A stretch of 20,184 nucleotides of DNA from a virus, in the IMG/VR virus record IMGVR_UViG_3300033996_000055, positions 1 through 20,184 of that record. One strand, 5' to 3'. The translations under genes and the position numbers were made by a program. How positions within the stretch are numbered: the first letter of the stretch is position 1; every line of letters begins with the position of its first letter. Positions 4,721 to 20,184 of this stretch are shown here, one piece after another. Below the pieces are notes generated by a model. The model saw nothing but the letters and a program-made list of their open reading frames with translations. It was not told the DNA's origin and did no database searches.

Positions 4721-4870
4721 ATGCCACTAGACGAATCAGATCTTGACTACATGCGAGCCGAAGACTTCCACCGCCGCCGGTATCAGGCCAACCTTGCCAG
4801 CCACCATGATTGCCGCGATCCAGATCATCCTGGCTGTGAGCTGTGCGAAGAGGAGAATGATGATGAGTGA
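4721..4870 (+). CDS. Small acidic Cys/His protein, possible zinc knuckle
   Basis: A 49-residue protein with AAGGAG 7 bases before its ATG. After a basic patch FHRRRYQ (16-22) come H28, H29, C31, H36, C39 and C42 in the stretch HHDCRDPDHPGCELC, then an acidic tail EEENDDE. The closely spaced Cys/His set suggests one bound zinc; the HPGCxxC ending recurs in small phage proteins of unknown role. The strong ribosome site and 8-base overlap with the following gene argue for real translation. Function unknown. Confidence 0.68.
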   Translation: MPLDESDLDYMRAEDFHRRRYQANLASHHDCRDPDHPGCELCEEENDDE

Positions 4871-4949
4871 GAAGTTTCTTGACACGCTGGCAGCTATCGC
4901 CATCGGTATTGGCTTTGCGGTCCTGCTTGTGGCATGGTGGTCATCATGA
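4863..4949 (+). CDS. 28-residue single-helix membrane peptide
   Basis: MSEKFLDTLAAIAIGIGFAVLLVAWWSS: a short soluble start, then one hydrophobic helix (about 8-26) ending in two tryptophans at the membrane interface. The GAGGAG in the previous gene's end supplies a ribosome site, and its stop overlaps the next start (ATGA). Initiation could also be at the ATG pair just upstream (4857 or 4860), adding one or two methionines. Role unknown; such peptides in early phage regions often act on host membrane proteins. Confidence 0.55.
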   Translation: MSEKFLDTLAAIAIGIGFAVLLVAWWSS

Positions 4950-5203
4950 CCGAACTCCAAGACTTCTGCCAAGAGCCGCGCACGATGGAAGAGCTGATTG
5001 ATGGCGGCTTCCCGCGCACAAAGGTCTACAACGCCGTCAAACGCAAGGAATTGATCAACACCAATGCCCAAGACGCATGGGGACGCAAGCAGCGCGGCAA
5101 GGGCCTGTTTGTGTCTGCCGTGACCCCTGTTCCATACAACGCCACATTGCTTGTTGCGGCTTGGAATAATCAGCTTACAACACAAGGAGAAACACATGTC
5201 TGA
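4946..5203 (+). CDS. Small winged-helix DNA-binding protein candidate
   Basis: An 85-residue protein starting at the ATGA overlap with the preceding peptide; the start four codons earlier (4934) is less likely. Residues 8-60 read as a helix-turn-helix with a wing: CQEPRTMEELIDGGFPRTKVYNAVKRKELINTN, then a basic turn WGRKQRGKGLFVSA that would form the beta hairpin. A recognition helix KVYNAVKRKEL followed by a basic wing suggests DNA binding. It resembles the 122-residue protein at 6433-6801 in layout but not closely in sequence. Target unknown; host or early phage promoters are possible. Confidence 0.65.
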   Translation: MTELQDFCQEPRTMEELIDGGFPRTKVYNAVKRKELINTNAQDAWGRKQRGKGLFVSAVTPVPYNATLLVAAWNNQLTTQGETHV

Positions 5204-5465
5204 AAAAATGCAGATCGAGATTGACCGCGCCGTCAACAAGTTCACCCCGCCCATGGAAGTGGGTGGCGGCTTCATGTTGCGCGATGAGTACGCCAAGCTG
5301 GCGCGGATGGCGGTGACCGAGGGCACGCTGATTGGTTGGTCGCACGCTGAAAACATGACACGCGAACGCCTGGAGAAAAAGATCTCCACCCTTGAGCACG
5401 AGGTGAGCATCCTCAGAGAGCGCGTCAAAGAGGTTGAACTTGAATTGATGGCGGCACAGAAATGA
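5196..5465 (+). CDS. Coiled-coil protein of unknown function (89 aa)
   Basis: The start at 5196 has AAGGAG and overlaps the previous gene by 8 bases. The N-terminal half (MQIEIDRAVNKFTPPMEVGGGFMLRDEYAKLARMA) is soluble and not recognised. From about residue 52 a continuous heptad pattern (TRERLEKKISTLEHEVSIL... to the end) predicts a parallel coiled coil, so it is probably a dimer. It ends in an ATGA overlap with the next gene. No enzymatic motif is seen. Confidence 0.7.
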   Translation: MSEKMQIEIDRAVNKFTPPMEVGGGFMLRDEYAKLARMAVTEGTLIGWSHAENMTRERLEKKISTLEHEVSILRERVKEVELELMAAQK

Positions 5466-5671
5466 GAAAGCTGAACTGGAACCCACCCGCTGGCACAAAG
5501 ATCGTATGGCCGACCCTGCACGTCTTTGATGCCGCCTATAAGCCAACCAGAGGCTCTGACGTGCAAGCTACATGGCGCAAGTACGGCTGGAAGCCTGTCT
5601 TTGGTAACTCGCCCAAGGTCGAGGAGCCGCAACACATTTCAAAGGTGCTGAAGTTATGGAAACAGTCTTGA
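5462..5671 (+). CDS. Small basic protein of unknown function (69 aa)
   Basis: A 69-residue basic, tryptophan-rich protein beginning MRKLNWNPPAGTKIVWP and ending KVLKLWKQS. Conserved-looking features are the five tryptophans and the SDVQATWRKYGWKP centre. The start is set by the ATGA overlap with the coiled-coil gene; the ribosome site is weak, so translational coupling is likely. I do not recognise a family. Confidence 0.62.
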   Translation: MRKLNWNPPAGTKIVWPTLHVFDAAYKPTRGSDVQATWRKYGWKPVFGNSPKVEEPQHISKVLKLWKQS

Positions 5672-5766
5672 GCTTTGTAATCCTTGGCGCGGTCGGCATC
5701 GCCATCCTGTTTGTGGTGGTCTATGCCTTCATCGTGGTGCTGCTGGACTCTTGGGAGATCAAGTGA
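5656..5766 (+). CDS. 36-residue single-helix membrane peptide
   Basis: METVLSFVILGAVGIAILFV... is almost entirely hydrophobic from residue 4 to 30 and ends with LLDSWEIK, giving one transmembrane helix with a short charged tail. It overlaps the previous gene by 16 bases and the next (GTG) by 4. AAAGGTGCTGAAGTT upstream offers a moderate ribosome site. It is too short for database-style assignment; position among other micro-genes supports translation. Confidence 0.55.
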   Translation: METVLSFVILGAVGIAILFVVVYAFIVVLLDSWEIK

Positions 5767-5915
5767 AGTGTCCAGTTTGCGCCAAATGGGTCAGCGTGCT
5801 TGAGACAAGGGCGCGGCCAAACAATGAGGTGTACAGGCGATACATGTGCGCCAATGAACACCGTTTCACCACCAAAGAAGTGGTGCAGAAAGTGATTAAG
5901 GGGAAGAGTGAATGA
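5763..5915 (+). CDS. NrdR-like zinc ribbon mini-protein
   Basis: A 50-residue protein with a GTG start at 5763, preceded by GGGAG at a good distance. It reads KCPVC, then SVLETRARPN, then RRYMCANEHRFTTKEV. This matches the N-terminal zinc ribbon of NrdR-type regulators and Ogr-like phage activators (CPxC ... ETR ... RRYxC ... RFTTxE). Here the fourth ligand would be H33 instead of the usual cysteine (C29-x3-H33). It has no ATP cone, so it is the ribbon alone. It may bind nucleic acid or a host transcription component. Short overlaps join it to both neighbours. Confidence 0.72.
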   Translation: MKCPVCAKWVSVLETRARPNNEVYRRYMCANEHRFTTKEVVQKVIKGKSE

Positions 5916-6100
5916 CAGACCGCCTTCTCATCGCCTTGGTGTGTGGCCTGATTGGCTGGAATGGGTTATTCCCTTCGCCACCCACGCCAGCATCACTGCG
6001 CGAGAAGATGATTGAGAGCCAGCACGCCAAGGTCTGCGAAAAGAAGAAGCTCAGAGCCAAGATCAAGAAACTATGTAGGAAATGGGGATATGACCGCTAA
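5912..6100 (+). CDS. Small membrane-anchored basic protein (62 aa)
   Basis: MTDRLLIALVCGLIGWNGLF forms one N-terminal membrane helix (about 4-20), then a short Pro-rich linker (PSPPTPAS) and a strongly basic tail (CEKKKLRAKIKKLCRKWGY). GGGGAAGAG upstream and an ATGA overlap with the zinc-ribbon gene support the start. With a helix and a positively charged cytoplasmic tail it could bind nucleic acid or acidic lipid at the inner membrane; this is inference. Family not recognised. Confidence 0.6.
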   Translation: MTDRLLIALVCGLIGWNGLFPSPPTPASLREKMIESQHAKVCEKKKLRAKIKKLCRKWGYDR

Positions 6101-6269
6101 GACAGCATTCAATTGGAACGATGGCACGCCATCCATCTTCAGCAAAGATGACTCACTGCGCAGGCACATTGCTGGCAAGAAGTCAGCCGCCACGCAACAG
6201 CAGAATCAAGGCATCGGCAAGAAGAAGCCGATTCTGGTTTACGCATTAGCTAAGGCAGCCAAGAAGTGA
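6090..6269 (+). CDS. Small basic protein of unknown function (59 aa)
   Basis: Starts at the ATG at 6090, 11 bases before the end of the previous gene, with GGAAATGGGG as ribosome site. The protein is hydrophilic: MTAKTAFNWNDGTPSIFSKD, then a Lys/Gln-rich middle (GKKSAATQQQNQGIGKKK) and a helical LVYALAKAAKK end. A longer reading from 6012 in this frame is not needed. No family recognised. The 4-base overlap with the following GTG-started gene suggests coupling. Confidence 0.58.
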   Translation: MTAKTAFNWNDGTPSIFSKDDSLRRHIAGKKSAATQQQNQGIGKKKPILVYALAKAAKK

Positions 6270-6436
6270 TTGAGCCAGTGCGCACCTTCTATGGCCGCAC
6301 CAAGGGTCTGCACAGCGAGAGAGAGACTGTCGTGGTGCAGCAAACTTGGTGGCGGTGCACTGAGTGCAACAAGTACTTCCAGCGTAAAGATGAGGCTGAT
6401 AGGCACGCCAGACGCGAGCACAGCGACACCAAATGA
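6266..6436 (+). CDS. C2H2 zinc-finger mini-protein
   Basis: A 56-residue protein read from a GTG at 6266 (no in-frame ATG is available), overlapping its neighbours by 4 bases on each side. The C-terminal half is a textbook C2H2 finger: WRCTECNKYFQRKDEADRH followed by ARREH, i.e. C31-x2-C34-x12-H47-x4-H52, with aromatic and hydrophobic core residues in place. The N-terminal 28 residues are basic and unassigned. Classical C2H2 fingers are rare in bacteria but known in Ros/MucR proteins and small phage proteins. DNA or RNA binding is likely; the target is unknown. Confidence 0.72.
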   Translation: MIEPVRTFYGRTKGLHSERETVVVQQTWWRCTECNKYFQRKDEADRHARREHSDTK

Positions 6437-6801
6437 AGTCAGTGCGCCTGCCCCGCATCGTTGACCTGCTGACGCGTCAGAGCTTGACTGCGCATGAGCT
6501 GGCGGCCATGACTTACTGCACCCAGCGGTCTGCTCAGATACTTGTTGCCAAGCTGCGCAGATCTGGCCTGATATACGTCACAGAGTGGCGCAGGGTTGGC
6601 ACTGTATGGGTGGCGGTGTACGCCTACGGCATCGGCTCTGACGCGACAAGGCCAAAGCCTTTGACGGCCAAGGAGAGGCTTGAGAAGTGGAGAGCCAAAG
6701 AGTCCCTCGATGACCATGCCTTCAGGATGGCGCGGGAGAGGGCCAAGAAGTGGAAGATTAAACGCGACCCGCTGGTGGCTGCGTTGTTTGGAGAGAGATG
6801 A
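6433..6801 (+). CDS. Winged-helix DNA-binding protein (122 aa)
   Basis: Residues 5-65 form a winged helix: LPRIVDLLTRQSLTAHELA, a turn, TQRSAQILVAKLRRSGLIYV as recognition helix, then the hairpin EWRRVGTVWVAVYAYG. This is the usual arrangement of small phage and archaeal MarR/ArsR-like regulators. A basic C-terminal tail (about 75-122: KERLEKWRAKESLDD, then RMARERAKKWKIKRD) is helical and could contact nucleic acid or a partner. ATGA overlaps link it to both neighbours. It lies at the distal end of the early block, possibly regulating the shift away from early expression; this is inference. Confidence 0.75.
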   Translation: MKSVRLPRIVDLLTRQSLTAHELAAMTYCTQRSAQILVAKLRRSGLIYVTEWRRVGTVWVAVYAYGIGSDATRPKPLTAKERLEKWRAKESLDDHAFRMARERAKKWKIKRDPLVAALFGER

Positions 6802-6977
6802 TGAAATTAATTATTGAGATTGGGCAAGGCCAAGACCCTGACATTGATGTCGCTGGGTCTGATGAATTTTTTGCTTTGACTGAATTAGAGCAAACAGAAT
6901 TAATTGACCAAATAAAAAATGCGCTTGATCAATATGCAACAAGAATTAATCTTGCATCATCTTTTTCAGCCTCTTGA
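6798..6977 (+). CDS. Small acidic AT-rich gene at the convergent junction (59 aa)
   Basis: MMKLIIEIGQGQDPDIDVAG... is an acidic 59-residue protein. GAGAGAG precedes the ATG pair at 6798/6801, which overlaps the previous stop. Its base composition is clearly more AT-rich than the genes before it. Its last 32 bases overlap, tail to tail, the 3' end of the opposing virion gene. Family not recognised. Beta-strand then helix (LTELEQTELIDQIKNALDQYA) is predicted by eye. Confidence 0.6.
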   Translation: MMKLIIEIGQGQDPDIDVAGSDEFFALTELEQTELIDQIKNALDQYATRINLASSFSAS

Positions 6978-8436
6978 TTGTCTTGGCGTCAAGAAATAAA
7001 GAAGTGCCAGACTCTCCAGAGCTTAATGCACCCATAGTCAATTGGTCTAGATCCAGTTTTTTACCTGCCGCAAGTTGGCTGGCAACTTTAGGCGCAGCCT
7101 TTGTTTGCTCATATATCTGTTGATATTTATCACCAAATACATCCTTAACTGGAGCCGACTTCAATGTGCCCTTGTACACGCCAGGCATCCCATGCGAATA
7201 GGTACTGTGAGCGCCACTTAGCAAACCAATCTCAGGCATTGCTTCATAGAAAGTTTCGCCAAGACTATATTTAGGAATGTCAGCAAGGTTTGGATCAAGC
7301 AGTGATCGTCTCAAGTCTGGATAGTTGTATCCAAACGCTTTTTCGCCGTATACAGAACCCATTTTTTCTGTGAATAATTTGCGCAAATCCCCAGCACTTC
7401 CTTTTGTTAAGCCAGCGCCAGTAAATAGTTGATCGCGCAATGACTTATCTCGCAACCCAACAAACTCAGAAAATTTACCTTTTTCACCTTTGACGGTTGC
7501 CTCTCTGATTCGTTTATTTAATTCATCAACGACATCTTTCTTAGCGCCAACAGTTTCATATAAAGATAACAACGCATCAGTTGGCATTGTTGAAAAATCT
7601 TCAGCGCCATAAGCCATCGTGTGTGGAGCAACAAGCACTTTCTCTCGTCCACCAAGATTTTTGTTTTCTTCAAGCGCTTTAAATACGCGATTGTTTTGTC
7701 TTTGCGCAGCACTCAGCATTGACGCATAGGCTCTTAAGTCTTGAATGTTCTTTATATCCCTTGGGAATGCAAAGCCGCCTTCAGTAATTATTGGTCGATT
7801 CAAAGTAATATCACTGAACTCGGTTACTTTTTCTCCTCTGCTTGTGATGTCTGATGGGAAAGTCAGAAGACTATAGCCCTCATAATCTTCAAGATTGAAT
7901 GGGCTTCTTGGCGCGAGGTTGCCAACATATTGAGTTTTATATCTAGTTCCAACTAATGGATTTGGATTTTTTGGTGTAACTGGCAGATATATATTGCTTG
8001 TCGTACCCTGCGCCAAATCACTCAGCAGTCCAGCACCAACGCCACCCTTCTTCATGGTGCGTTCAACCATTGGCGCGACTTTGCGTTCAGCGGCTCTGCC
8101 AGCGCGTTCAGCTTGTGCGGCATAAGCCTGCCGAGGGATTGATGCCAGCATCCCTACTTCAGGAATAACTGGCGGCAGCTTGCTCTCTTCAAGCAGGCCG
8201 CCAATGCTTTGAAGCATCTCAGGCGCGACATTGCCGCGAGGCTGGTAGGTGTACTGCTCCATGAACTTGCGAGCCTCTTCCTCGGCAATCCTGTTAGCTT
8301 CTCGCGTGCCTAGCTTGCCGCTGGTGGCGCCCTTGTACACGCCGTACGGCATACCCAACAAGCCAGCCGCTGCGCCACTACCAAGTGTGGCGCCAGTCTC
8401 GCCAAGGCCCATCAAGTAGTCAAGGTAATCTGCCAT
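6946..8436 (-). CDS. Virion-associated protein with polyvalent-protein-like domain (496 aa)
   Basis: Last gene of the leftward virion operon. The N-terminal ~130 residues are Gly/Ala-rich with an amphipathic stretch (TGATLGSGAAAGLLGMPYGV), like other ejected internal proteins. From about residue 150 the sequence changes: ITLNRPIITEGGFAFPRD, YASMLSAAQRQNNRVFKAL and LVAPHTMAYGAEDFSTM follow the order I recall from domains found in large phage and plasmid polyvalent proteins, which enter the host with DNA. No catalytic residues can be named. The DNA of the second part is much more AT-rich (hand counts: 21 of 60 GC at 7501-7560, 37 of 60 at 8281-8340), suggesting a swapped module. Starts 9 bases after the 636-residue gene. 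Confidence 0.7.
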   Translation of the reverse strand: MADYLDYLMGLGETGATLGSGAAAGLLGMPYGVYKGATSGKLGTREANRIAEEEARKFMEQYTYQPRGNVAPEMLQSIGGLLEESKLPPVIPEVGMLASIPRQAYAAQAERAGRAAERKVAPMVERTMKKGGVGAGLLSDLAQGTTSNIYLPVTPKNPNPLVGTRYKTQYVGNLAPRSPFNLEDYEGYSLLTFPSDITSRGEKVTEFSDITLNRPIITEGGFAFPRDIKNIQDLRAYASMLSAAQRQNNRVFKALEENKNLGGREKVLVAPHTMAYGAEDFSTMPTDALLSLYETVGAKKDVVDELNKRIREATVKGEKGKFSEFVGLRDKSLRDQLFTGAGLTKGSAGDLRKLFTEKMGSVYGEKAFGYNYPDLRRSLLDPNLADIPKYSLGETFYEAMPEIGLLSGAHSTYSHGMPGVYKGTLKSAPVKDVFGDKYQQIYEQTKAAPKVASQLAAGKKLDLDQLTMGALSSGESGTSLFLDAKTIKRLKKMMQD

Positions 8437-8445
8437 TGTGTTATC

Positions 8446-10356
8446 TCAATCTAATGGAAATCTTAACTCTGGCGGCATCTCGTCAACGCCTTGTGCAGCG
8501 CCAATGGTAGTGCCAAATCCAAGCTGTTCAGCCTTCTGACGCAATGACTTAGCCAGCGGCTCAACCTTCATCATGTTGGCCTTGCTTATCAGTACAGAGG
8601 CCAGCTTGGGGTCCAACATAGACTCAACCAGCAACTGCTGAACTTGTTGATCTGGCAGCTTGTAGAGCCAATCAAGAGGCCTTGTCATGGTGCGCAGTGT
8701 GGTGTTGTCGGCCATCGACTCAGAGAAGACACGGCCAATCAAATTACCCATGCTCATGTTTTGGAAAGTGTTGGAGCCTGGTGCTCTCACGCCTGGCGCT
8801 GTTGACGCCATGCCGCGATTGATCTCGTCAATGATGTTGTCCAAGCGCTTTTGCGCGGGGATAGACAGTTTCAGATCAAGATCTTTGGCCTTGGTAGCCA
8901 ACTGGCGGCGCAGGCTTCCAGCGGCCAGCACAGGCTCACCAGTCATCAGATTTGGCTGGCCTGTCGTGACCTTGCGCTCAATCTCTTGCAGCATCTTCAT
9001 CTGGTCAATGGGGCCAGACATCTTGGAAAATTTGTCCATGTAGGCTCTGAAGCCTGGCGCTGATGCGTCAATCACATCATCAACAGCCTTAATTACGTCC
9101 TTTAATTGCCCTTTTGCAAGGCGCAGGCTTGGGTTTTCTTGGTTGTATTTACCTTGAACTGCGTCAGCCAAGTCCTTGCGAACCTCATACAAAGACATTG
9201 GCGTTTTTCCCTTTGCCACGCGCTCAGTCGCCCACTTCATGGCGCTCTCAACGTCCATGCGCACGCCAACAGGGCTTGCCATGACGTTATCAATTGCCCT
9301 GTTCACCACCAAGTTGACGCCACTCTGGAACGTCACAGGGTCAACCGTGACGGCGGCAAAGGCCTCCTCACGCATTGGCCGTGTCACTTCAGTGCGCTTT
9401 GTTTCTGCCGCAGCCACAGAGCCAGGCTTGCCAGAGATTCTGCGGAATGCGTCCAACAAGGCCTGCTGATTTGCAGACAGTCTTGCGCCAAACAGGTTTG
9501 ACGGGTCAAAGGTTGCAGACCGCAGTGAAGTCTCCAAACCAGCCAAGCCAGGATCAAATGCCGTGGCGGCTGTAGTTGGGCGCACACCAGGCACAAGTGG
9601 CTCGGCCTGCGCCAAACGTGAAGCCGCCAAGTTAGGCTCTGTTGCCAGCTTGCGCAATACGTTACCGACAATCACCTCACGGCCAGCCTGAGTGAACGGC
9701 TGAACCACGGTTGCGGGTGCGGCAATGGCGCGTTGTGTGATTGGCAGCTTTGGACCGCCAGGCGCAACCATACCGGCCAGCAATGCACCGCCCATCTGCG
9801 CGGATGGCCCTGCACCGCCTTCACGCAACATGCCGCCAGCGGCGGTGGCCGCAGTGGCAGCCGAAGCCTGCGCCTGTGGGTTGGTCGCAATCATCTTCAA
9901 GAACTCTTGCGCTGTCTGCGATGTGGCCGCAGGCAGGGCACGCTGTGCCAAGTTGGCAGCGCCAGAAACGCCGTAGCCTGCTGTCGCCATGTCTTGCACC
10001 ACACGCTCTGTGGCTGTGGCTGGCTCTGGGAATCCCATGGCCGTCAGTGTCCGAGGCATTGCCTGAGACATTGTCGGCACGTTAGTACCTGCGGCCAAGT
10101 TGAAGAAGTTGACGGCAGGATCGACCACCAGAGGCAACATGCCGCCAGCAGACATCACGGCCTGCGCCATTGGACGTGTTGCCAAACCCATTTGACGGCC
10201 AAGCTGATCAGTCATGCTTGGGCCTTGTGGCGCCACTTCAGGCGCTGCTTGAGGTATTGGCGGCAACTTCCTTAAAGCCGCAGCCATCTCCTCCTTGGAC
10301 ATCCCATCAGGAAATGTGACAGGGCCATAACCAATTACATTGACTGTTTGTGGCAT
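8446..10356 (-). CDS. Large internal/ejection-type virion protein (636 aa)
   Basis: A 636-residue protein. It begins MPQTVNVIGYGPVTFPDGMSKEEM, a short beta-then-helix opening seen in many phage internal proteins, followed by a Pro/Ala linker and several small-residue hydrophobic segments between about 65 and 215 (for example AQAVMSAGGMLPLVVDPAVNFFNLAAG). From about 270 to the end it is helical and mixed-charge (EVRKDLADAVQGKY, DVIKAVDDVIDASAPGFRAY). Membrane-compatible segments plus long helices fit a protein that leaves the capsid with DNA and helps cross the envelope. No lytic transglycosylase motif was seen. Spacing to both neighbours is 9 bases. Confidence 0.68.
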   Translation of the reverse strand: MPQTVNVIGYGPVTFPDGMSKEEMAAALRKLPPIPQAAPEVAPQGPSMTDQLGRQMGLATRPMAQAVMSAGGMLPLVVDPAVNFFNLAAGTNVPTMSQAMPRTLTAMGFPEPATATERVVQDMATAGYGVSGAANLAQRALPAATSQTAQEFLKMIATNPQAQASAATAATAAGGMLREGGAGPSAQMGGALLAGMVAPGGPKLPITQRAIAAPATVVQPFTQAGREVIVGNVLRKLATEPNLAASRLAQAEPLVPGVRPTTAATAFDPGLAGLETSLRSATFDPSNLFGARLSANQQALLDAFRRISGKPGSVAAAETKRTEVTRPMREEAFAAVTVDPVTFQSGVNLVVNRAIDNVMASPVGVRMDVESAMKWATERVAKGKTPMSLYEVRKDLADAVQGKYNQENPSLRLAKGQLKDVIKAVDDVIDASAPGFRAYMDKFSKMSGPIDQMKMLQEIERKVTTGQPNLMTGEPVLAAGSLRRQLATKAKDLDLKLSIPAQKRLDNIIDEINRGMASTAPGVRAPGSNTFQNMSMGNLIGRVFSESMADNTTLRTMTRPLDWLYKLPDQQVQQLLVESMLDPKLASVLISKANMMKVEPLAKSLRQKAEQLGFGTTIGAAQGVDEMPPELRFPLD

Positions 10357-10365
10357 CTCAGAACC

Positions 10366-11811
10366 TCATTCCCATTGTTGTGTTGCAGGATTCCAGTTCA
10401 GACCGCCACTTGGCGTGTAAGACCTGCCAGCAGATTTCTTCATGGCCTCAGTGGCGATTCGACGTGCCTCTGCTTTTTGTTTGATGTTGGCTGGCGTGTC
10501 ATTTATTTGCGGGAAGTAGGTGCGATATTCCTGCGCCATCTCATCAACACCAATGGCAGCGCCAGACTCTTTGCGCAGCTTGGCGCGAATCCACGCCTGC
10601 GCTGCTTGTTCATATTGTTGAGTGGCTTCGGGTTGCACAAGTCTCTTCGTAACATCACCGATAAAAGGAACTGATCCTGCAATTCCACTGCCAGCGCCTG
10701 GCTGAGATCCAGCAGGCAATGCCTTAATGATGGCCTCTGAGTTTTCCATCTGATTGGCAAAGCCTGCGGCATTTGCCTCTCCCTCTGTTGGCTTTGGCGG
10801 CGCCTTGCCTTTGAGAGGAACACCGCCAGGGCCAGCCACAGGGATTGCCGGCAAGCCTGGGACCTTGGGCACATAGAACACGCCATCTTCGTTTTCCATG
10901 CGCTCAAACTGGCCGCGCTGTAATTCTTGCTTGGAAATGTTCAATCTGCGAGCTTCCATACCAAGGCGCTGGCGCTCCATCTTCAGGCGCTCAACATCCA
11001 ATCCAAAACGATCTGCGTCCATCTTCAGTCGCTGCTGCTCGGCTGGCGTGATGCCTGTGCCATAGACTTCGCCGCCCTTCAAGGCGTTCTTGTCAATCGC
11101 CATGACTCGGCCATCAACATTCTGCAACACCACTTCGCGTTTGGGGCCAAAGCCTTCCAGCGTCTTGATCTTGCCGCCTTTGAACTGCTGAACCATCACA
11201 GGCTTGCCGTCAGAGCCAGTCACCTCAAAGGGCTGGCCTGTGACTTCCTCGCGGGGCTTGATTGACATCGCCATCTTTTGGTAGGCTTCGGCCTTTCCAG
11301 GATCTGAGGCGGCATATAACTGAGCCGCTCTCATGAACTGCTCATAGCGCATGTCTTCAGGAGACACTGCGGCGGCCTCTGGCATTTGACCAATCATGGC
11401 GGCGCGTTCAGCAGTAGGACCAACCTGACCGCCAGGCGCGGCCAAGGCTTGCTGTGGCGTCATAGGCATACCAGCCGTAGGCGCTTGCGCACCAAAGATC
11501 TCCTCAAGCCTGCGGCGCTGTTCTTGCGCCATCTTGTACTCATCCATCTTCTGCTTGGTCAGCAGTTGATTGATGGCGCTTTGCTGTGCCTCTCCATAGC
11601 CCTTGGAGCCAGCCTGCAATGCGCCACCCAAAGCCTGACCAAAGCTGATGCGTTGCGTGCTTGGTCCACCAGCTTGGAGAAACGCGCCAGCAGCCTGAAG
11701 CAGTGCCTGACGCTGAATTGCTTCGCGCTGTGTTTCGTTCAGATACTCATTGAGGCCATTGTCACCACCGCCAAACAATAAGCCGCCAAGATCAAAAGAA
11801 TTTGTAGCCAT
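10366..11811 (-). CDS. Internal/ejection-type virion protein with coiled coil (481 aa)
   Basis: Begins MATNSFDLGGLLFGGGDNGL, then a helical Gln/Ala-rich region with ALLQAAGAFLQAGGPSTQRISFGQALGGAL (about 36-65), a form that recurs in short-tailed phages near the tail genes. A charged coiled-coil stretch follows (LTKQKMDEYKMAQEQRRRLEEIF), then a linker, a compact middle domain (EVTGSDGKPVMVQQFKGGKIK) and a second helical part with MDADRFGLDVERLKMERQRL. The last ~100 residues resemble an end domain with RKESGAAIGVDEMAQEYRTYFP. GAGGTAA precedes the start. Likely one of the ejected or head-interior proteins; the individual role cannot be told from sequence. Confidence 0.68.
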   Translation of the reverse strand: MATNSFDLGGLLFGGGDNGLNEYLNETQREAIQRQALLQAAGAFLQAGGPSTQRISFGQALGGALQAGSKGYGEAQQSAINQLLTKQKMDEYKMAQEQRRRLEEIFGAQAPTAGMPMTPQQALAAPGGQVGPTAERAAMIGQMPEAAAVSPEDMRYEQFMRAAQLYAASDPGKAEAYQKMAMSIKPREEVTGQPFEVTGSDGKPVMVQQFKGGKIKTLEGFGPKREVVLQNVDGRVMAIDKNALKGGEVYGTGITPAEQQRLKMDADRFGLDVERLKMERQRLGMEARRLNISKQELQRGQFERMENEDGVFYVPKVPGLPAIPVAGPGGVPLKGKAPPKPTEGEANAAGFANQMENSEAIIKALPAGSQPGAGSGIAGSVPFIGDVTKRLVQPEATQQYEQAAQAWIRAKLRKESGAAIGVDEMAQEYRTYFPQINDTPANIKQKAEARRIATEAMKKSAGRSYTPSGGLNWNPATQQWE

Positions 11812-12522: not shown

Positions 12523-13677
12523 TTAAACCGTTTCGCCGTTTTCACGAATGAATTTTGTATCAGTTCCCAAGGTGTTGAACACCCTCATCCAGAACTTCTC
12601 AACTGGCTTGAATAACCAGCCATGCTTGTTTTCACCATAGTGGTACTTGCCGTATGACACCAATGGGTCTGCAAATGTCTTTGCCACCAAGAATTTGAAT
12701 AATCGAGATTCACGCATCAATGGGACAAAGACTTCGGCCAGCTTGTAATAGCCACGGCGATTCTTGTCGGTCATCTTTTCATCACGGTATCTGCGCACCA
12801 CGGCATCCATCGTGCCGTCACCGTAGCGAGCTTCCAGCATGATGAAGCAGCATCCACCGCCGCCTCCACCACCGCCACCACCGCCACCAGATGCAGTGCC
12901 GCCTACCCCAGCAGTACCTCCTGCACCAGTTGCAAAACCACCGCCACTACTTGCGCCAAGACCTGGAGCGCCTGGGCCTCCACCGCCGCCGCCAGATGAT
13001 CCACCACGACCGCCGCTTGCGGCAGCCGCCGCTTGTCCACCCATCGCAGAACTTACAGCATTGCCAGGTGTAGTTGATGCCATGCCTGGGCCGCTAATGC
13101 CAGACAGGCCAAGCAGGCCGCTGTTGCTGATCACGCCATAACTTGGAGCTGTGACGCCATCACCATCTGCCACAGCCTCACCTTCGCCAACAGTGACAAC
13201 GCCTGCCTTTTCACCGCCCAGCAAACCATCGCCCAAAGTGAATGGCAAGAACCCTTTATATCCCATCTTCTTGGCGGCCAAATCTGCCAATTGCAAAGGC
13301 ATTGGCGTCAGTAATTTGTTGATAAAGTCTGCGTTTTTCTTCTGGAACTGAGCCAATTCTGCTGGCGTCATGGCATCAAAGAATTGATCAATGCGCTGCT
13401 GCTCAGCTGCGCTTCTGCCGCCGCCACCAGCAGCGTTTAAGGCGTTCAGCTCGTCAACCATCTCCTCAACAGTGCGAGTCGCATATATGCCAGGCTTATA
13501 ACCGACAGCACTTCGAGGAGCGCCAGTTACATTGGCAGGCTCTGCCGCCATCTCTTGCATGATCTGCTGGTAGTAGTTGGTAGGCGTAGGCGCTTGACCC
13601 TGTCCAAGCAAACCAGTATTCCACTGTGCTGGTGGCAGATTACGCCATGCTTGACTCGGTAAATCTTCGTAGGCCAT
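12523..13677 (-). CDS. Gly-rich virion protein with CFI-box-like C-terminal domain (384 aa)
   Basis: The start at 13677 has AAGGA and lies 2 bases after the previous stop. Three parts are seen: a helical N-terminal half (to about 155) with EQQRIDQFFDAMTPAELAQF; a Gly/Ala/Ser-rich flexible region (about 185-275) ending in twelve consecutive glycines; then CCFIMLEARYGDGTMD followed by VVRRYRDEKM and a basic-aromatic tail. The last part resembles the CFI-box C-terminal domain known from secreted or surface bacterial proteins (CFIATAAYG, then LRxFRD) with the core CFI ... YG ... RYRD kept. In the virion it could be a membrane- or envelope-acting module on a flexible tether. Neighbours are ejection-type genes. 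Confidence 0.75.
   Translation of the reverse strand: MAYEDLPSQAWRNLPPAQWNTGLLGQGQAPTPTNYYQQIMQEMAAEPANVTGAPRSAVGYKPGIYATRTVEEMVDELNALNAAGGGGRSAAEQQRIDQFFDAMTPAELAQFQKKNADFINKLLTPMPLQLADLAAKKMGYKGFLPFTLGDGLLGGEKAGVVTVGEGEAVADGDGVTAPSYGVISNSGLLGLSGISGPGMASTTPGNAVSSAMGGQAAAAASGGRGGSSGGGGGGPGAPGLGASSGGGFATGAGGTAGVGGTASGGGGGGGGGGGGCCFIMLEARYGDGTMDAVVRRYRDEKMTDKNRRGYYKLAEVFVPLMRESRLFKFLVAKTFADPLVSYGKYHYGENKHGWLFKPVEKFWMRVFNTLGTDTKFIRENGETV
12853..12888. repeat. GGN trinucleotide tract encoding twelve glycines
   Basis: Twelve consecutive glycine codons of mixed third base (GGT, GGC, GGA) directly before the CysCysPheIle block of the virion protein. Codon mixing means that the protein run is selected and is not a pure DNA slippage tract, although further CCN/GGN-rich stretches lie nearby (about 12940-13015). 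Confidence 0.85.
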
Positions 13678-13679
13678 GA

Positions 13680-14042
13680 TCAAAGTTCCTTGCTCAAAAT
13701 GAACCACTTAGGCTCATATCCTTCATCTTTTAAGAAGGTCTTTTGCCAGCCAGGACGGCCAGCTAAAGACACTCGCGTGCAACCTATGCTCTTTCCCCAA
13801 GACTCGATCAAAGGTCGCATCATCTTGAGTTCATCTAGGTCGCCGCCAGCAAGGAAATAATGCAAGTCCTTGAGTCGCGGGTAGACAATGATCTCTGTCA
13901 CCACCGCTGAATTCAAGCCAGGCCAGAACTGAAATCTGCCTGCACTCAACCCTTCAGCAATATCCTCTATTTTGTGTGTTCCTCCAGAGTATTCTAAGGC
14001 CGCCTCCACATGCTGGCGCAGTCTCTCAAAATCTCCATCCAT
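13680..14042 (-). CDS. GNAT-like small virion-block protein (120 aa)
   Basis: A 120-residue protein whose start overlaps the nozzle-like gene stop (TGATG). The layout is that of a reduced GNAT fold: strands VVTEIIVYPRLKDLHYFLAG, a helix LDELKMMRPLIESWGKSIGC, strand TRVSLAG, then RPGWQKTFLKDEGYEPKWFILSKEL, which parallels the GxxGWxRxLxxxGF ending of phage acetyltransferase-like proteins found next to tail genes. The usual acetyl-CoA pyrophosphate loop (Q/RxxGxG/A) is not obvious, so it may be structural. Similar genes sit at this position in many short-tailed phages. Confidence 0.65.
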   Translation of the reverse strand: MDGDFERLRQHVEAALEYSGGTHKIEDIAEGLSAGRFQFWPGLNSAVVTEIIVYPRLKDLHYFLAGGDLDELKMMRPLIESWGKSIGCTRVSLAGRPGWQKTFLKDEGYEPKWFILSKEL

Positions 14043-15526
14043 CAGCGCTTACCAGCCGCCACAGCTTCCAATCTCATGACGCCAACGCGCCAATCGTCCA
14101 GCAGTGCGCCAGTCACAATCATCTTCACCTGACGTCCAGAGAACCTCGCATCTGTCGGCTGTGAAGCTGAATATGGACCGTGCGTTGTCTCTGTTGACGT
14201 TGGATACATTCGCGTCTTAAAGCTGATGGCAACCTCGCCCAGCGTCTGCTCATCAGGGATCACCTGACGCACCGACATGATGTTGTCACCAGATCCAATC
14301 TCAAAGGGTCCAGACTCGGCATAGACATTCCCGCCGTCATACGCAAAGCCGACCTCATGCTCGTAGATGTAGCCATCAGACGACACCATCAGAGGATTCA
14401 AATAAACACCACGGTCTGTGCCAGCCGTGCGAGCCATGGAGCCAATGTTCCAGTGATTCTCGCGGTAGTTGTATGTGACGTAGGAATCAACCTCGTTGCT
14501 GGCGCTTGATGGGTAGAACCACCAGATCTCGCCATACTTGGAGTTGTGCACCGCATAAACCTTTGACGACTGGTTGTAGTTCATGTTCTGGAACACATAG
14601 TCAGACACATCGCAAGGCAATGGCTTGACATAGCCGTCAAATATCCAGAAGCCTGATGAAGACATCCACATGGCGGCAGTGTCAATGGCTGCCACAGCCT
14701 GCGAGGAGATCAGACCGCAGCCAGAGCCAGCCTTCTCAAAGGCGTAGACATAGGGCAGGCCGACATAGCTGGCGGTGTGCACGTCAACGTCAGTGAATAG
14801 CAAGTTGATGCCGCGCACCTTTTTGCCAGCCTTCAACGCGCCAACCGTCTGCAATTCAAAGTCACCAGCCTGATTGGTAGCCGCAGCCGTCCAAACAGTG
14901 TTGTTCTCCTGATCGCACCACTTCACCAGCCGAGGATTACTGGACGCGCCCAGGGCAAAGATAAACCTTTCGGCAGTTGACATCACAGCCTCGCAGCCTG
15001 TTGGTGCATTGGTGATGGCTGCCGCCAGTGTTGGCGTTGTAAAACCTAATTGCCATTCGTATAACTTGCCATCAAAATTTGAACAGGCAATCAAATACTC
15101 TCCCCAAGTATCTAATGACCAGGTAGTCGCTGGCTCAAAAGTTTGAGATGCCGGTCTTTGAACGCCATAGGCAAATGTGCCGTATGTGTTGTATCCATAT
15201 CCAGTCAAAATAGTAGCATCCGCAACACCAGATAAGAACCCTGTTGGCGTAATGTCCTTTAAGACATTGGTTGTTCCACTCAAAACATAAAGTTTTGAAT
15301 GAGTGCCAAATGCGGCCCAAGCAGTTGCGCCGTTGTCCCGCCAAGTAAGCAGGCCACGACACTTGCCGGTCATTTGCGTTTCTAATTTCTTACGCCACCC
15401 GCCAATTGGGCGCAGGGTATTCTCAAACCAGCGAACAAGGTTTGCGTCATACCAACGGCCCGAAGACTGGTACTCAGTACCGTTTCGGTAGATGCCTGGT
15501 GGGATTTTGAGAGGTACGAATGCCAT
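14042..15526 (-). CDS. Tail nozzle / DNA-stabilisation type protein (494 aa)
   Basis: A 494-residue, beta-rich, Trp/Tyr-rich protein starting MAFVPLKIPPGIYRNGTEYQ. The N-terminal block SSGRWYDANLVRWFENTLRPIGGW and repeated strands such as LYVLSGTT, GEYLIACSNFDGKLYEWQ, VYAVHNSKYGEIWWFYP are what I recall from P22 gp10-like and T7 gp12-like nozzle proteins, beta-propeller rings that close the short tail. It would sit below the portal/adaptor and hold packaged DNA. About 500 residues is normal. Only a weak ribosome site is visible. The family name is by resemblance, not by a unique motif. Confidence 0.75.
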   Translation of the reverse strand: MAFVPLKIPPGIYRNGTEYQSSGRWYDANLVRWFENTLRPIGGWRKKLETQMTGKCRGLLTWRDNGATAWAAFGTHSKLYVLSGTTNVLKDITPTGFLSGVADATILTGYGYNTYGTFAYGVQRPASQTFEPATTWSLDTWGEYLIACSNFDGKLYEWQLGFTTPTLAAAITNAPTGCEAVMSTAERFIFALGASSNPRLVKWCDQENNTVWTAAATNQAGDFELQTVGALKAGKKVRGINLLFTDVDVHTASYVGLPYVYAFEKAGSGCGLISSQAVAAIDTAAMWMSSSGFWIFDGYVKPLPCDVSDYVFQNMNYNQSSKVYAVHNSKYGEIWWFYPSSASNEVDSYVTYNYRENHWNIGSMARTAGTDRGVYLNPLMVSSDGYIYEHEVGFAYDGGNVYAESGPFEIGSGDNIMSVRQVIPDEQTLGEVAISFKTRMYPTSTETTHGPYSASQPTDARFSGRQVKMIVTGALLDDWRVGVMRLEAVAAGKR

Positions 15527-16207: not shown

Positions 16208-16675
16208 TTATGCGACCAGACCAGGCAAATATTGCGTCTTACCGGCAACCTTGGTGGCGGTCAATTCTTGCTTCTTGAGGTTGTTCGGGTCATAGCTGAC
16301 GTGCACCCAGCCGCTGTCTGGAATGCCTGGCGTGTAGAACTCCAGAATCAATTGCGTGTAGCTCAGATTGTCCATGATGAACTGAGCCAGATCGGCATTT
16401 GCAACGCCAGGGATCTCGATGTCAGCAGCCATGCCTTTGCAATGGTCGCTGGTCTTTGACCCGCCGACCGCCGCATTGGACTCAGGGCTGCGATAAGCTG
16501 AGTTCACCTTCACGCCCTTGCCGTAATGGTCACGAACAGGCTGCAATACCTTCTCGCACAGCAGGCGCAGATTCTCTGTCGCTTCGTCATCTGGCGTGTT
16601 GTCTAGACCCATGCGCAAGGCTGTTTCTGACTTGCTGAGTTCATGCAGGCTAAAGTTGACGGTGAGTTGTGTCAT
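16208..16675 (-). CDS. Endolysin, M15-type peptidase (155 aa)
   Basis: A zinc peptidase of the M15_3 type that cuts the peptide cross-links of peptidoglycan for host lysis. The zinc site is visible: SDHCKGMAAD gives H78 and D85, and GWVHVS gives H125; SAYRSPESNAAVGG (59-72) is the conserved substrate-binding loop before it. The length is that of a single-domain cytoplasmic endolysin without signal peptide, so export depends on a holin. The start overlaps the Rz stop (ATGA). The N-terminal NFSLHELSKSETALRMGLDN is the standard family opening. Confidence 0.93.
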   Translation of the reverse strand: MTQLTVNFSLHELSKSETALRMGLDNTPDDEATENLRLLCEKVLQPVRDHYGKGVKVNSAYRSPESNAAVGGSKTSDHCKGMAADIEIPGVANADLAQFIMDNLSYTQLILEFYTPGIPDSGWVHVSYDPNNLKKQELTATKVAGKTQYLPGLVA

Positions 16676-17133
16676 TTGATACCTTTCTGTGATTCAAGGG
16701 CTTGGTTGTACAAATCGATGCAAGCATTCAGCTTGGTGATGGCGCGGTCACCCTCCTCTGCTATTGCGAAAAGAGCTTTTCCAACTTCTGGACTAAGTTC
16801 GGCTGATGCTTCTCCTCCACCACCTCCTGTGGCAGTGGCGGGATCTGCGGTGGCTTGTATGGGGCAGGACGCTTTGACGCGCAGCTTGAGAGCGCCACTG
16901 TCAATAGCAGCATCGCGCTGTTTTGTAGCAAGTTTGGCTTTTTCATTCGTTACCCTCAATGCGTTTGCGGTGGTTGTTACAGCGGCTTCTAAGGCCGCCT
17001 CCTTGGCCCTGGCTTCGGTATTGAGTCGATCTACCTCGGCCTGCTGGGCCTCTTGCTCATAGTGCTTGCCGGTGCAATATCCACCGCCAAACACAAGGAC
17101 CAGCACCAGCAGACCGCCAAGAAGATCCTTCAT
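16672..17133 (-). CDS. Rz: Rz-like i-spanin (inner-membrane lysis protein)
   Basis: A 153-residue protein with an N-terminal signal anchor (residues 4-19, LLGGLLVLVLVFGGGYC), then a long periplasmic helical coiled coil rich in Ala, Glu and Lys (about 25-75), a break with CPIQA and a Gly-rich linker (about 101-106), and a final helical segment ending DLYNQALESQK. Two cysteines (C89, C137) may form disulfides. It spans the periplasm with the lipoprotein Rz1 to fuse inner and outer membranes in the last lysis step. It overlaps the holin stop and endolysin start by 4 bases and contains the whole Rz1 gene in another frame. Confidence 0.85.
   Translation of the reverse strand: MKDLLGGLLVLVLVFGGGYCTGKHYEQEAQQAEVDRLNTEARAKEAALEAAVTTTANALRVTNEKAKLATKQRDAAIDSGALKLRVKASCPIQATADPATATGGGGGEASAELSPEVGKALFAIAEEGDRAITKLNACIDLYNQALESQKGIK
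16761..16946 (-). CDS. Rz1: Rz1-like o-spanin lipoprotein, nested inside Rz
   Basis: A 61-residue lipoprotein in the +1 frame relative to Rz, wholly inside it. MKKPNLLQNSAMLLLTVALSSC is a signal peptide with lipobox LSSC and lipidated C22. The mature part is short and proline-rich (KRPAPYKPPQIPPLPQE), then a helical end (VQKLEKLFSQ). Lipobox plus Pro-rich mature region nested in an Rz gene is the diagnostic architecture of lambda-type spanins. It would sit in the outer membrane inner leaflet and bind Rz. Confidence 0.9.
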   Translation of the reverse strand: MKKPNLLQNSAMLLLTVALSSCASKRPAPYKPPQIPPLPQEVVEEKHQPNLVQKLEKLFSQ

Positions 17134-18988: not shown

Positions 18989-20184
18989 TTTGCTTCCAGT
19001 GCTGTGATGCGGTCAGTCAGGGTGGTGATGATGGCTTGTTGTTCTTGGATGCACTTCATGAGGGCATATTGCAAGTCAGTCTGATAGATTGACAAACGCA
19101 TCTTGGGTTCTTCTTTAGTTCCCCAATTGCTCTCCATAACCAATTCAGGCGCAACTGCTTGAACATCCTGTGCAACCACACCCAAAGTCAAACCATCATC
19201 TTCTTTAAGATTTTGGTCAATGTAGTTGAATGTCTGTACTGGGATATTGCAAATTACATCAAGATAAGACTTTGCTGGCGCAAAATTGGTTTTCTCTCTG
19301 CGGTCTGACAAGTTGACGTTGTTTGCGCTGTAATTGGCAATACCACCATTAGAACGAACAGTCATCCTTCTAGTAGAACCAGATGAATAGCAACCTAAAA
19401 ATTCATTGGCTGTTCCATTTGGATTTGCATTTGGATAAACAATTGACAAACCATAAGGGTCAGAAGCATGAGATGCGTAAAACCTAACTACTTCTGTCCC
19501 TGAAACATTTTTTGTAACCCCCAATGCTTCAGAACCGTTAGGTGTTGTTTGCCCCACCAGCAAGTTACCGCTGGAGTCGATACGCATCTTTTCTGATGGT
19601 GGAGAAGCAGTAGCATCTAATGCAAATGTTAAAGCGTTACTATTTTTTGCGGCACTACCACATTCAACAACCCATGAATTACCATAAGCGTTCATAACAA
19701 AAGCGGCTCCACCACTAGAGCCAGTATCGTCATTTTTTACTGAAATTCTAGTTGATGCATTTTGGTCTTTACGGACAGTTACACTTGATGATGCAAATTG
19801 AGAAGTAGTACCAATCCCCACATTACCAGAGGAGTCGATACGCATACGTTCGGCAAGTGAGCCAGCGTTAGCAGTAAAAAACTGCATCGCCCCAGAATTG
19901 TCAGCCCCACCACGAATCATCTCAATCGAACCGACAAGGTTGGCTTGGTGGTAATAAGACAAAGCACCAAATGTAGAGTCAGTAGTGCGTGAGCCTTGAA
20001 TGTTGATACCTGCACGAGCAGTTCCTGATGTTCCTGCGCTAACAGTTAATTCTTTGTTAAAGCTATTTAAGTTAGGACTAGTAGTTCCGACACCGACATC
20101 ACCTGCGCTAGTAATACGCATACTCTCAACACCACCTTCTGTAAAGGCAATAGTGTCAGCCGCAGGGAAGAAGATGCCTGTGTT
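18985..20184 (-). CDS. Tail fibre with C-terminal S74 chaperone/autoprotease, N-terminus beyond window
   Basis: The frame is open to the right edge (399 codons here); the virion-binding N-terminus is missing. Three copies of a MRIDSSGNVGIGTTS-like beta motif space the shaft. The last ~110 residues are a Peptidase S74 intramolecular chaperone: LSDRREKTNFAPAKSYLDVI with the Ser-x4-Lys pair (Ser codon 19308-19306, Lys five residues later) used for self-cleavage, then VQTFNYID, LTLGVVAQDVQAVAPELV and a C-terminal coiled coil (LMKCIQEQQAIITTLTDRITALEA). The domain would trimerise the fibre, then cut itself off. The fibre probably binds the host surface. Confidence 0.88.
   Translation of the reverse strand, partial: NTGIFFPAADTIAFTEGGVESMRITSAGDVGVGTTSPNLNSFNKELTVSAGTSGTARAGINIQGSRTTDSTFGALSYYHQANLVGSIEMIRGGADNSGAMQFFTANAGSLAERMRIDSSGNVGIGTTSQFASSSVTVRKDQNASTRISVKNDDTGSSGGAAFVMNAYGNSWVVECGSAAKNSNALTFALDATASPPSEKMRIDSSGNLLVGQTTPNGSEALGVTKNVSGTEVVRFYASHASDPYGLSIVYPNANPNGTANEFLGCYSSGSTRRMTVRSNGGIANYSANNVNLSDRREKTNFAPAKSYLDVICNIPVQTFNYIDQNLKEDDGLTLGVVAQDVQAVAPELVMESNWGTKEEPKMRLSIYQTDLQYALMKCIQEQQAIITTLTDRITALEAK
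19306..19308 (-). other. Predicted S74 self-cleavage serine codon
   Basis: TCA codon of the LSDRREK motif. In endosialidase-type S74 domains a Ser and a Lys five residues downstream form the catalytic pair and the chain is cut at this serine. The same spacing is seen here, so the chaperone part released would be about 107 residues. The cleavage itself is family knowledge. Confidence 0.65.
19543..19587 (-). repeat. Fibre shaft repeat, copy MRIDSSGNLLVGQTT
   Basis: A 45-base block encoding MRIDSSGNLLVGQTT, the copy nearest the C-terminus of three related shaft motifs. Its first 21 bases or so are nearly identical to the copy at 19801-19845. Confidence 0.75.
19801..19845 (-). repeat. Fibre shaft repeat, copy MRIDSSGNVGIGTTS
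   Basis: A 45-base block encoding MRIDSSGNVGIGTTS, the canonical form of the motif found in many S74-bearing phage fibres. It lies 258 bases from the next copy leftward. Confidence 0.75.
20077..20121 (-). repeat. Fibre shaft repeat, diverged copy MRITSAGDVGVGTTS
   Basis: A 45-base block encoding MRITSAGDVGVGTTS, a diverged copy of the shaft motif, 276 bases from the next. It is preceded by FFPAADTIAFTEGGVES, which is itself the usual lead-in to this motif. Confidence 0.7.

Follow-up and report, generated by a model that had tools for sequence, protein, structure and literature searches.

An AT-rich block at the junction of two convergent genes

In a 20,184-bp viral contig from IMG/VR, the whole of which was analysed and is called the window here, two convergent genes meet in DNA that is much richer in A and T than its surroundings. 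This raises the question of whether the block is an exchanged module, which genes it comprises, and what their products could do for the phage. A preliminary description of the sequence had placed the block at about 6800-8040, based on hand counts of 21 GC out of 60 at 7501-7560 and 37 out of 60 at 8281-8340. These counts turned out to be exact and the block was confirmed, with a GC content of 0.412 for 6798-8040, compared to 0.588 for 8041-8436, 0.592 for 6433-6797, and 0.521 for the whole window. Within the window, no stretch of the same length is more AT-rich (best start 6781). Segmentation of the region between 4.7 and 10.4 kb with two change points put the borders at 6796 and 7995, with a GC content of 0.41 in between, and the log-likelihood gain was 44.0 versus at most 17.7 in twenty 60-bp block shuffles. 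The contrast was sharpest in the third codon positions, where the GC content (GC3) was 0.59 for residues 1-140 of the 496-residue protein P496, 0.34 for its residues 141-496, 0.24 for c59, and 0.73 for orf122 (Table 1).

Table 1. Coordinates of the cassette, its neighbours, and the late genes discussed in the text
Feature	Position	Strand	Remarks
orf122, winged-helix-like conserved neighbour just outside the cassette	6433..6801	+	weak similarity to phrog_142 (Ren-like exclusion protein), E 2e-4
c59, encoding the small acidic partner (putative immunity protein or antitoxin)	6798..6977	+	59 codons, pI 4.1
Putative effector domain: exchangeable C-terminus of P496 (family A, residues ~148-496 and stop)	6946..7995	-	GC 0.42
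Constant P496 head, residues 1 to ~147	7996..8436	-	GC 0.59; common to phages with different C-termini; change point 7995
Putative ejection protein of 636 aa, upstream of P496 in the late unit	8446..10356	-	contiguous with P496, same strand
481-aa late-unit protein	10366..11811	-	N-terminal part conserved (~40-58%), rest variable
g494, P22 gp10-like nozzle protein that marks the late virion unit	14042..15526	-	virion structural protein phrog_3287, E 1.5e-85; podovirus nozzle PDB 8zkk, E 1.8e-9

The left border coincides with the start of c59, the last gene of the rightward unit, which had correctly been assigned to the block, and the right border lies at about residue 147 of P496, so that the block comprises c59 together with ~350 C-terminal residues of the convergent P496 gene. 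The step in composition within P496 therefore exists, only later in the protein than the roughly 130 GC-rich N-terminal and 365 AT-rich C-terminal residues estimated before. Low GC content alone is not unique to this block within the window, since a second AT-rich stretch covers a tail-fibre gene with a Peptidase_S74 chaperone end (GC 0.39-0.42 for 19.05-19.8 kb, and 0.39-0.46 for 19050-20100), which may be another exchanged piece.

Heads and C-terminal domains of P496 are exchanged in both directions

A search of viral contigs with residues 1-150 of P496 yielded 48 matching viral loci, at 50-94% identity, a few of which were contigs already found by another search. Together, these loci carry at least six unrelated C-terminal classes on the same head of about 150 residues: the type of the window (class A), an ART-like class (B), the classes represented by loci L058 (C), L017 (D), and L019 (E), and a class with a HEMQH metallopeptidase motif (F, L044). 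The naming of class B as a putative ADP-ribosyltransferase comes down to an H...GYGxY motif and a partial match to phrog_873, and the AlphaFold model of this C-terminus is poor (pLDDT 49.6). In all classes, the head has a GC content of ~0.47-0.62 and the C-terminal part a lower one of 0.37-0.48, indicating that low GC is a property of the slot and not just of one import.

The reverse exchange was found as well. The family-A domain occurs on other heads in L001-L005, at 78-91% identity. Taken together, the 18 family-A members were too divergent to scan the collection with a single alignment, and split alignments were used instead, of which alignment A2 finds the domain in 132 viral stretches. 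The heads that carry it fall into about a dozen clusters.

Two relatives delimit the exchanged piece at the nucleotide level. L015, which has another C-terminus, matches the window at 8004-8436 (93.5%) and again up to position 6791 (86.4%), with no match in between. L004, which has another N-terminus, matches only at 6801-7985. Since the homology of L015 lies outside, that of L004 inside, and the GC change points fall at similar positions, composition and homology give the same borders independently. The AT-rich block is thus one exchangeable cassette. The swapped module proposed in the preliminary description is strongly supported by this recombination of heads and C-terminal parts in both directions; instead of keeping the whole 496-residue protein as one conserved unit, relatives reassort the two parts. 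A sequencing or assembly artefact was rejected, as the layout recurs in more than 100 loci from many contigs. In bacterial genomes, a single relative was found, located on a phage-like contig of an alphaproteobacterial metagenome-assembled genome (MAG), and this gives no firm host.

The domain travels with a small partner gene

The start codon of c59 at 6798 overlaps the stop codon of orf122 (ATGA), and its 3' end overlaps the convergent P496 gene by 32 nt. That c59 is a spurious frame was ruled out by purifying selection: in 18 independent pairs of homologues, pS was 0.312 and pN 0.045, computed outside the overlap. c59 is therefore a selected protein-coding gene. For the I1 type of partner, pN/pS was 0.18 over 103 pooled pairs, likewise outside the overlap.

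In class-A loci, a small convergent frame lies between the stop codon of the C-terminal domain and orf122, and it differs by domain subtype. Of the 98 family-A genes whose 3' end is intact, about 94 have such a partner. Pattern matching identified 91 of these (67 of type I1, 21 of I2, two of I3, and one other), three more were recognised by eye (L076, L078, and L099), and in the remaining four no recognisable partner was found. The I2 partner occurs in 21 of 21 genes of its subtype, and a profile comparison of I1 and I2 showed no relation between them. Class D has its own partner in 9/9 cases, on several different heads, and freshwater class E in 7/7; in more divergent class E members the partner is unclear or missing. 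Classes B, C, and F showed no small partner gene, the space before orf122 in class C being no more than 118 nt, indicating that a partner is not obligatory for every C-terminus.

Searching from the side of the partner gave the same picture. The I1 profile matched 113 frames in the loci retrieved, 112 of which are convergent with, and at most 150 nt away from, a family-A domain. Scans in which the partner was the sole query returned 27 loci, and 25 of the 26 that were checked for position adjoin a family-A domain. The exception in both cases is L190, which ends at a contig end. The locus outside these 26 (L191) shows a family-A domain match at the contig edge. The pairing also persists when the surroundings change. 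In the MAG contig mentioned above (L164), the partner is still convergent to the domain, while orf122 is absent and terminase genes come next, and in L004 a 234-codon gene is inserted between orf122 and the partner. By eye, this inserted gene (1793-2497 of L004, minus strand, 234 aa) resembles a 2-oxoglutarate/iron oxygenase.

We then compared how far the different parts of the locus have diverged. In 24 distinct loci with all four parts, the distance correlation was 0.97 for domain and partner, 0.29 for partner and orf122, and 0.19 for partner and head, keeping in mind that the physical overlap itself forces some linkage of domain and partner and that the loci are not phylogenetically independent. 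The correlation between partner and orf122 fell to 0.07 when the domain was taken into account, i.e., they are unrelated. In a wider set of 46 loci, the values were 0.87 for domain and partner and 0.37 for partner and head. A clear example is the pair L066 and L136, whose heads are 94% and orf122 proteins 93% identical, compared to 31% for the domains and 20% for the partners. The partner lies as close to orf122 (4-nt overlap or ~9 nt) as to the domain that it overlaps, yet diverges with the domain, hence proximity alone does not explain the linked divergence of domain and partner. The AT-rich rightward gene c59 is a cognate partner travelling with the domain, something that the preliminary description had missed.

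P496 closes a late unit behind a nozzle gene

The late unit is marked by the nozzle gene g494, whose homologue in MW202879 is annotated as phage stabilization protein. A nozzle homologue was present in 18 of 18 relatives tested, two of them weak, and four relatives pass the P22-portal cut-off. P496 closes this unit. The three proteins preceding it occupy the position of ejection proteins, and two of them (481 and 636 aa) are variable between relatives. The 636-aa protein is replaced in most close relatives, in many of which it is absent or, in one case, cut down to its first 34 residues, and of the 481-aa protein mainly the first ~150-230 residues are kept. P496, the 636-aa, and the 481-aa proteins gave no family match to gp7, gp20, or gp16. 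The counterpart of the 241-aa protein in a relative has a weak match to the DNA ejection protein family phrog_4287 (E 0.033). On the other side of the cassette, orf122 is kept in loci of any C-terminal class.

A tyrosine integrase was found in none of the records of 20 relatives, which may be incomplete (controls 14/14), and in three of the 20 (L068, L136, and L157) an open frame of ~230 aa matches the serine recombinase family PF00239. These short-tailed water phages are likely lytic, as far as possibly incomplete records allow.

The family-A domain matches no family in the libraries searched

Neither the family-A domain nor its partner had a match above chance in Pfam, PHROGs, NCBIfam, PADLOC, or the PDB sequences, and the 18 family-A members gave no Pfam or PHROGs match other than one sub-threshold Agglutinin hit (E 0.045). 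In alignment A1 of the family, the Asp of an FPSD motif, a Gly, and the Ser of a YAS motif are invariant. The AlphaFold model of the domain is of good quality (pLDDT 86.2, pTM 0.81). A Foldseek search with this model against the PDB gave no match (best E 0.55), so no catalytic activity can be named. Among viral structure models, 17 matched the domain at E<=0.001. Several of these matches fall within large phage proteins (859-1489 aa), one of which bears the name structural protein, from a Flavobacterium phage. In MW202675.1 (L163), the family-A domain and the polyvalent-protein domain InPase PF18823 are combined in a single 898-aa protein (4738-7434). This protein is annotated as a type I restriction enzyme, which looks wrong given its domain content. 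The earlier proposal of a polyvalent-protein-like domain is thus partly supported: it holds in kind, through the matches of the AlphaFold model inside large multidomain phage proteins and the InPase fusion in one relative, and fails for a catalogued domain, since no curated LPD, Pfam, PHROGs, or NCBIfam family and no PDB fold was recovered.

A probable effector paired with a putative antidote

What the cassette does has to account for both the exchange and the partner. We consider it probable that it encodes a polymorphic effector domain on a putative ejection protein, P496, with c59 as the cognate, immunity-like partner. The two convergent, 3'-overlapping coding regions, for the C-terminal effector domain and for c59, would then form one functional pair. 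We infer that P496, a late product, is anchored in the virion through its constant head. It would be carried into the next host along with the DNA, and its C-terminal domain would there act harmfully on a host component. c59, encoded in the opposite, non-late unit, would bind and neutralise this domain, and may either protect the producing cell until lysis or switch off an injected domain, of the phage itself or of a superinfecting one. Phages would swap domain and antidote as one unit, recombining at the head sequence on one side and at orf122 on the other, in the manner of polymorphic toxin systems. Carriage of P496 as an ejection protein is plausible from the gene order behind the nozzle gene, and the C-terminal domain is most likely an effector. 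Against this explanation counts that the neighbouring late proteins lack a match to a curated ejection-protein family, apart from the one weak hit. The missing integrase counts against a toxin-antidote reading too, as without it there is no lysogen to protect, unlike in MuF systems. The wider picture, of integrase-less phages trading injected polymorphic toxins with convergent, 3'-overlapping antidote genes of uncatalogued families, in conflicts of phage with host or phage with phage instead of among bacteria, is offered more tentatively; it may or may not hold.

Other roles for c59 fit part of these data. It resembles type III secretion chaperones in being small, acidic, and strictly tied to one domain subtype, and swappable proteins that pass a narrow portal could need help in folding. 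c59 might therefore be a dedicated chaperone or packaging adaptor, keeping the domain in a soluble or unfolded state in which it can be loaded or ejected, and no antidote at all. However, it lies in the transcription unit opposite to the late genes that it would serve, as far as timing can be deduced, and C-termini of the ART-like and metallopeptidase-like classes do without such a helper on the same head, which makes this role unlikely. Alternatively, the 3' end of the late unit may simply be a recombination hotspot where c59 hitchhikes and the C-termini are host-specific parts for DNA delivery, with no effector role. Mosaicism has been described for ejection proteins (PMC8954989), the adjacent 636- and 481-aa proteins also vary, and the overlap enforces co-transfer of c59 and domain. 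Such mosaic variation does not account for the purifying selection on c59, for its divergence independently of orf122, which it abuts as closely as the domain, or for the retention of the partner where orf122 is gone (L164) or separated from it by another gene (L004), and we regard it as quite improbable.

A role in superinfection exclusion draws on the same data as the effector-antidote explanation. Here, c59-like proteins would be made early and block an incoming effector or ejection protein of the same C-terminal type, and the swaps would reflect an immunity-type arms race between phages. The weak resemblance of the upstream orf122 to a Ren-like exclusion protein points in this direction, and P22 SieA is known for such a function (PMC10883804). 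The present data do not separate self-protection from exclusion of others; we think exclusion rather unlikely as the explanation in its own right, and it would be compatible with a delivered effector and its antidote as a second use of c59.

Comparison with known systems

The closest known kind of system is that of the MuF polymorphic toxins of temperate phages (Jamet 2017, PMC5576092; Apk2, PMC12226406; Bxa, PMC11699363), for which, in prophages, immunity proteins have been proven experimentally (PMC11699363, PMC12226406). In both cases a phage protein of the structural region combines a constant N-terminus with unrelated C-termini, of which P496 has at least six classes on one head, and small genes are specific to the C-terminal type, here in about 94 of 98 family-A genes and with a correlation of 0.97. 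A constant head with a variable tip and a matched partner is thus already known from MuF. The head, the domain and partner families, the orientation, and the type of phage differ. The MuF partner is co-directional and downstream, whereas c59 is on the opposite strand, convergent, and overlapping at the 3' end. The phages belong to another group, without a tyrosine integrase in 20 relatives, the families of the P496 domain and its partner are uncharacterised, and no MuF domain was found in P496 using Pfam and PHROGs.

Delivery with the phage DNA has been proposed for polyvalent proteins (Iyer 2017, PMC5512222). According to the same study, these proteins do not follow the constant-N/variable-C layout of polymorphic toxins, and the term immunity protein is never used in it. 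The family-A domain resembles them in its single fusion to InPase PF18823 and in its structural matches within 859-1489-aa phage proteins. It differs in that P496 consists of one head and one domain instead of several activities, the combination with another activity occurring only in the relative L163, and its 18 members matched no catalogued polyvalent family, LPD or enzyme, in Pfam or PHROGs. With the P22-like ejection (E) proteins, P496 shares its place in the late unit behind a gp10-like nozzle gene and its mosaic evolution. A review of ejection proteins describes such mosaic evolution and mentions no toxin or antidote, the term toxin being absent (PMC8954989). In the literature searched we found no podovirus counterpart of the P496/c59 system, which is no proof of absence.

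If the proposed explanation holds, one environmental phage group would offer dozens of natural effector-plus-partner pairs from families absent from the curated libraries searched. Whether phages inject toxins requiring an antidote could then be tested directly, a question on which the evidence so far comes mainly from MuF proteins of prophages. A convergent partner may mark those C-termini that are harmful to the producing cell, considering that the ART-like and metallopeptidase-like C-termini on the P496 head have none, and the pairing of domain and partner could serve as a search rule for further phage effectors.

Other features of the window and its relatives

The effector heads of the three relatives with a serine recombinase-like frame look like one type (MALL..EE/DL.PFFGNPNIQRQGA). 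In the window, a 394-aa protein (12526-13707, minus strand) contains a CCFIMLEARYGDGTMDAVVRRYRDE segment after an extended stretch of Gly; in several relatives, its C-terminal ~110-136 residues show 80-88% conservation and the rest is unmatched. Elsewhere, a lipoprotein-like frame of 61 aa (16761-16946, minus strand) lies wholly inside the gene for a 153-aa membrane protein (16672-17133, minus strand), in another frame, and by eye this arrangement looks like an embedded Rz/Rz1 spanin pair.
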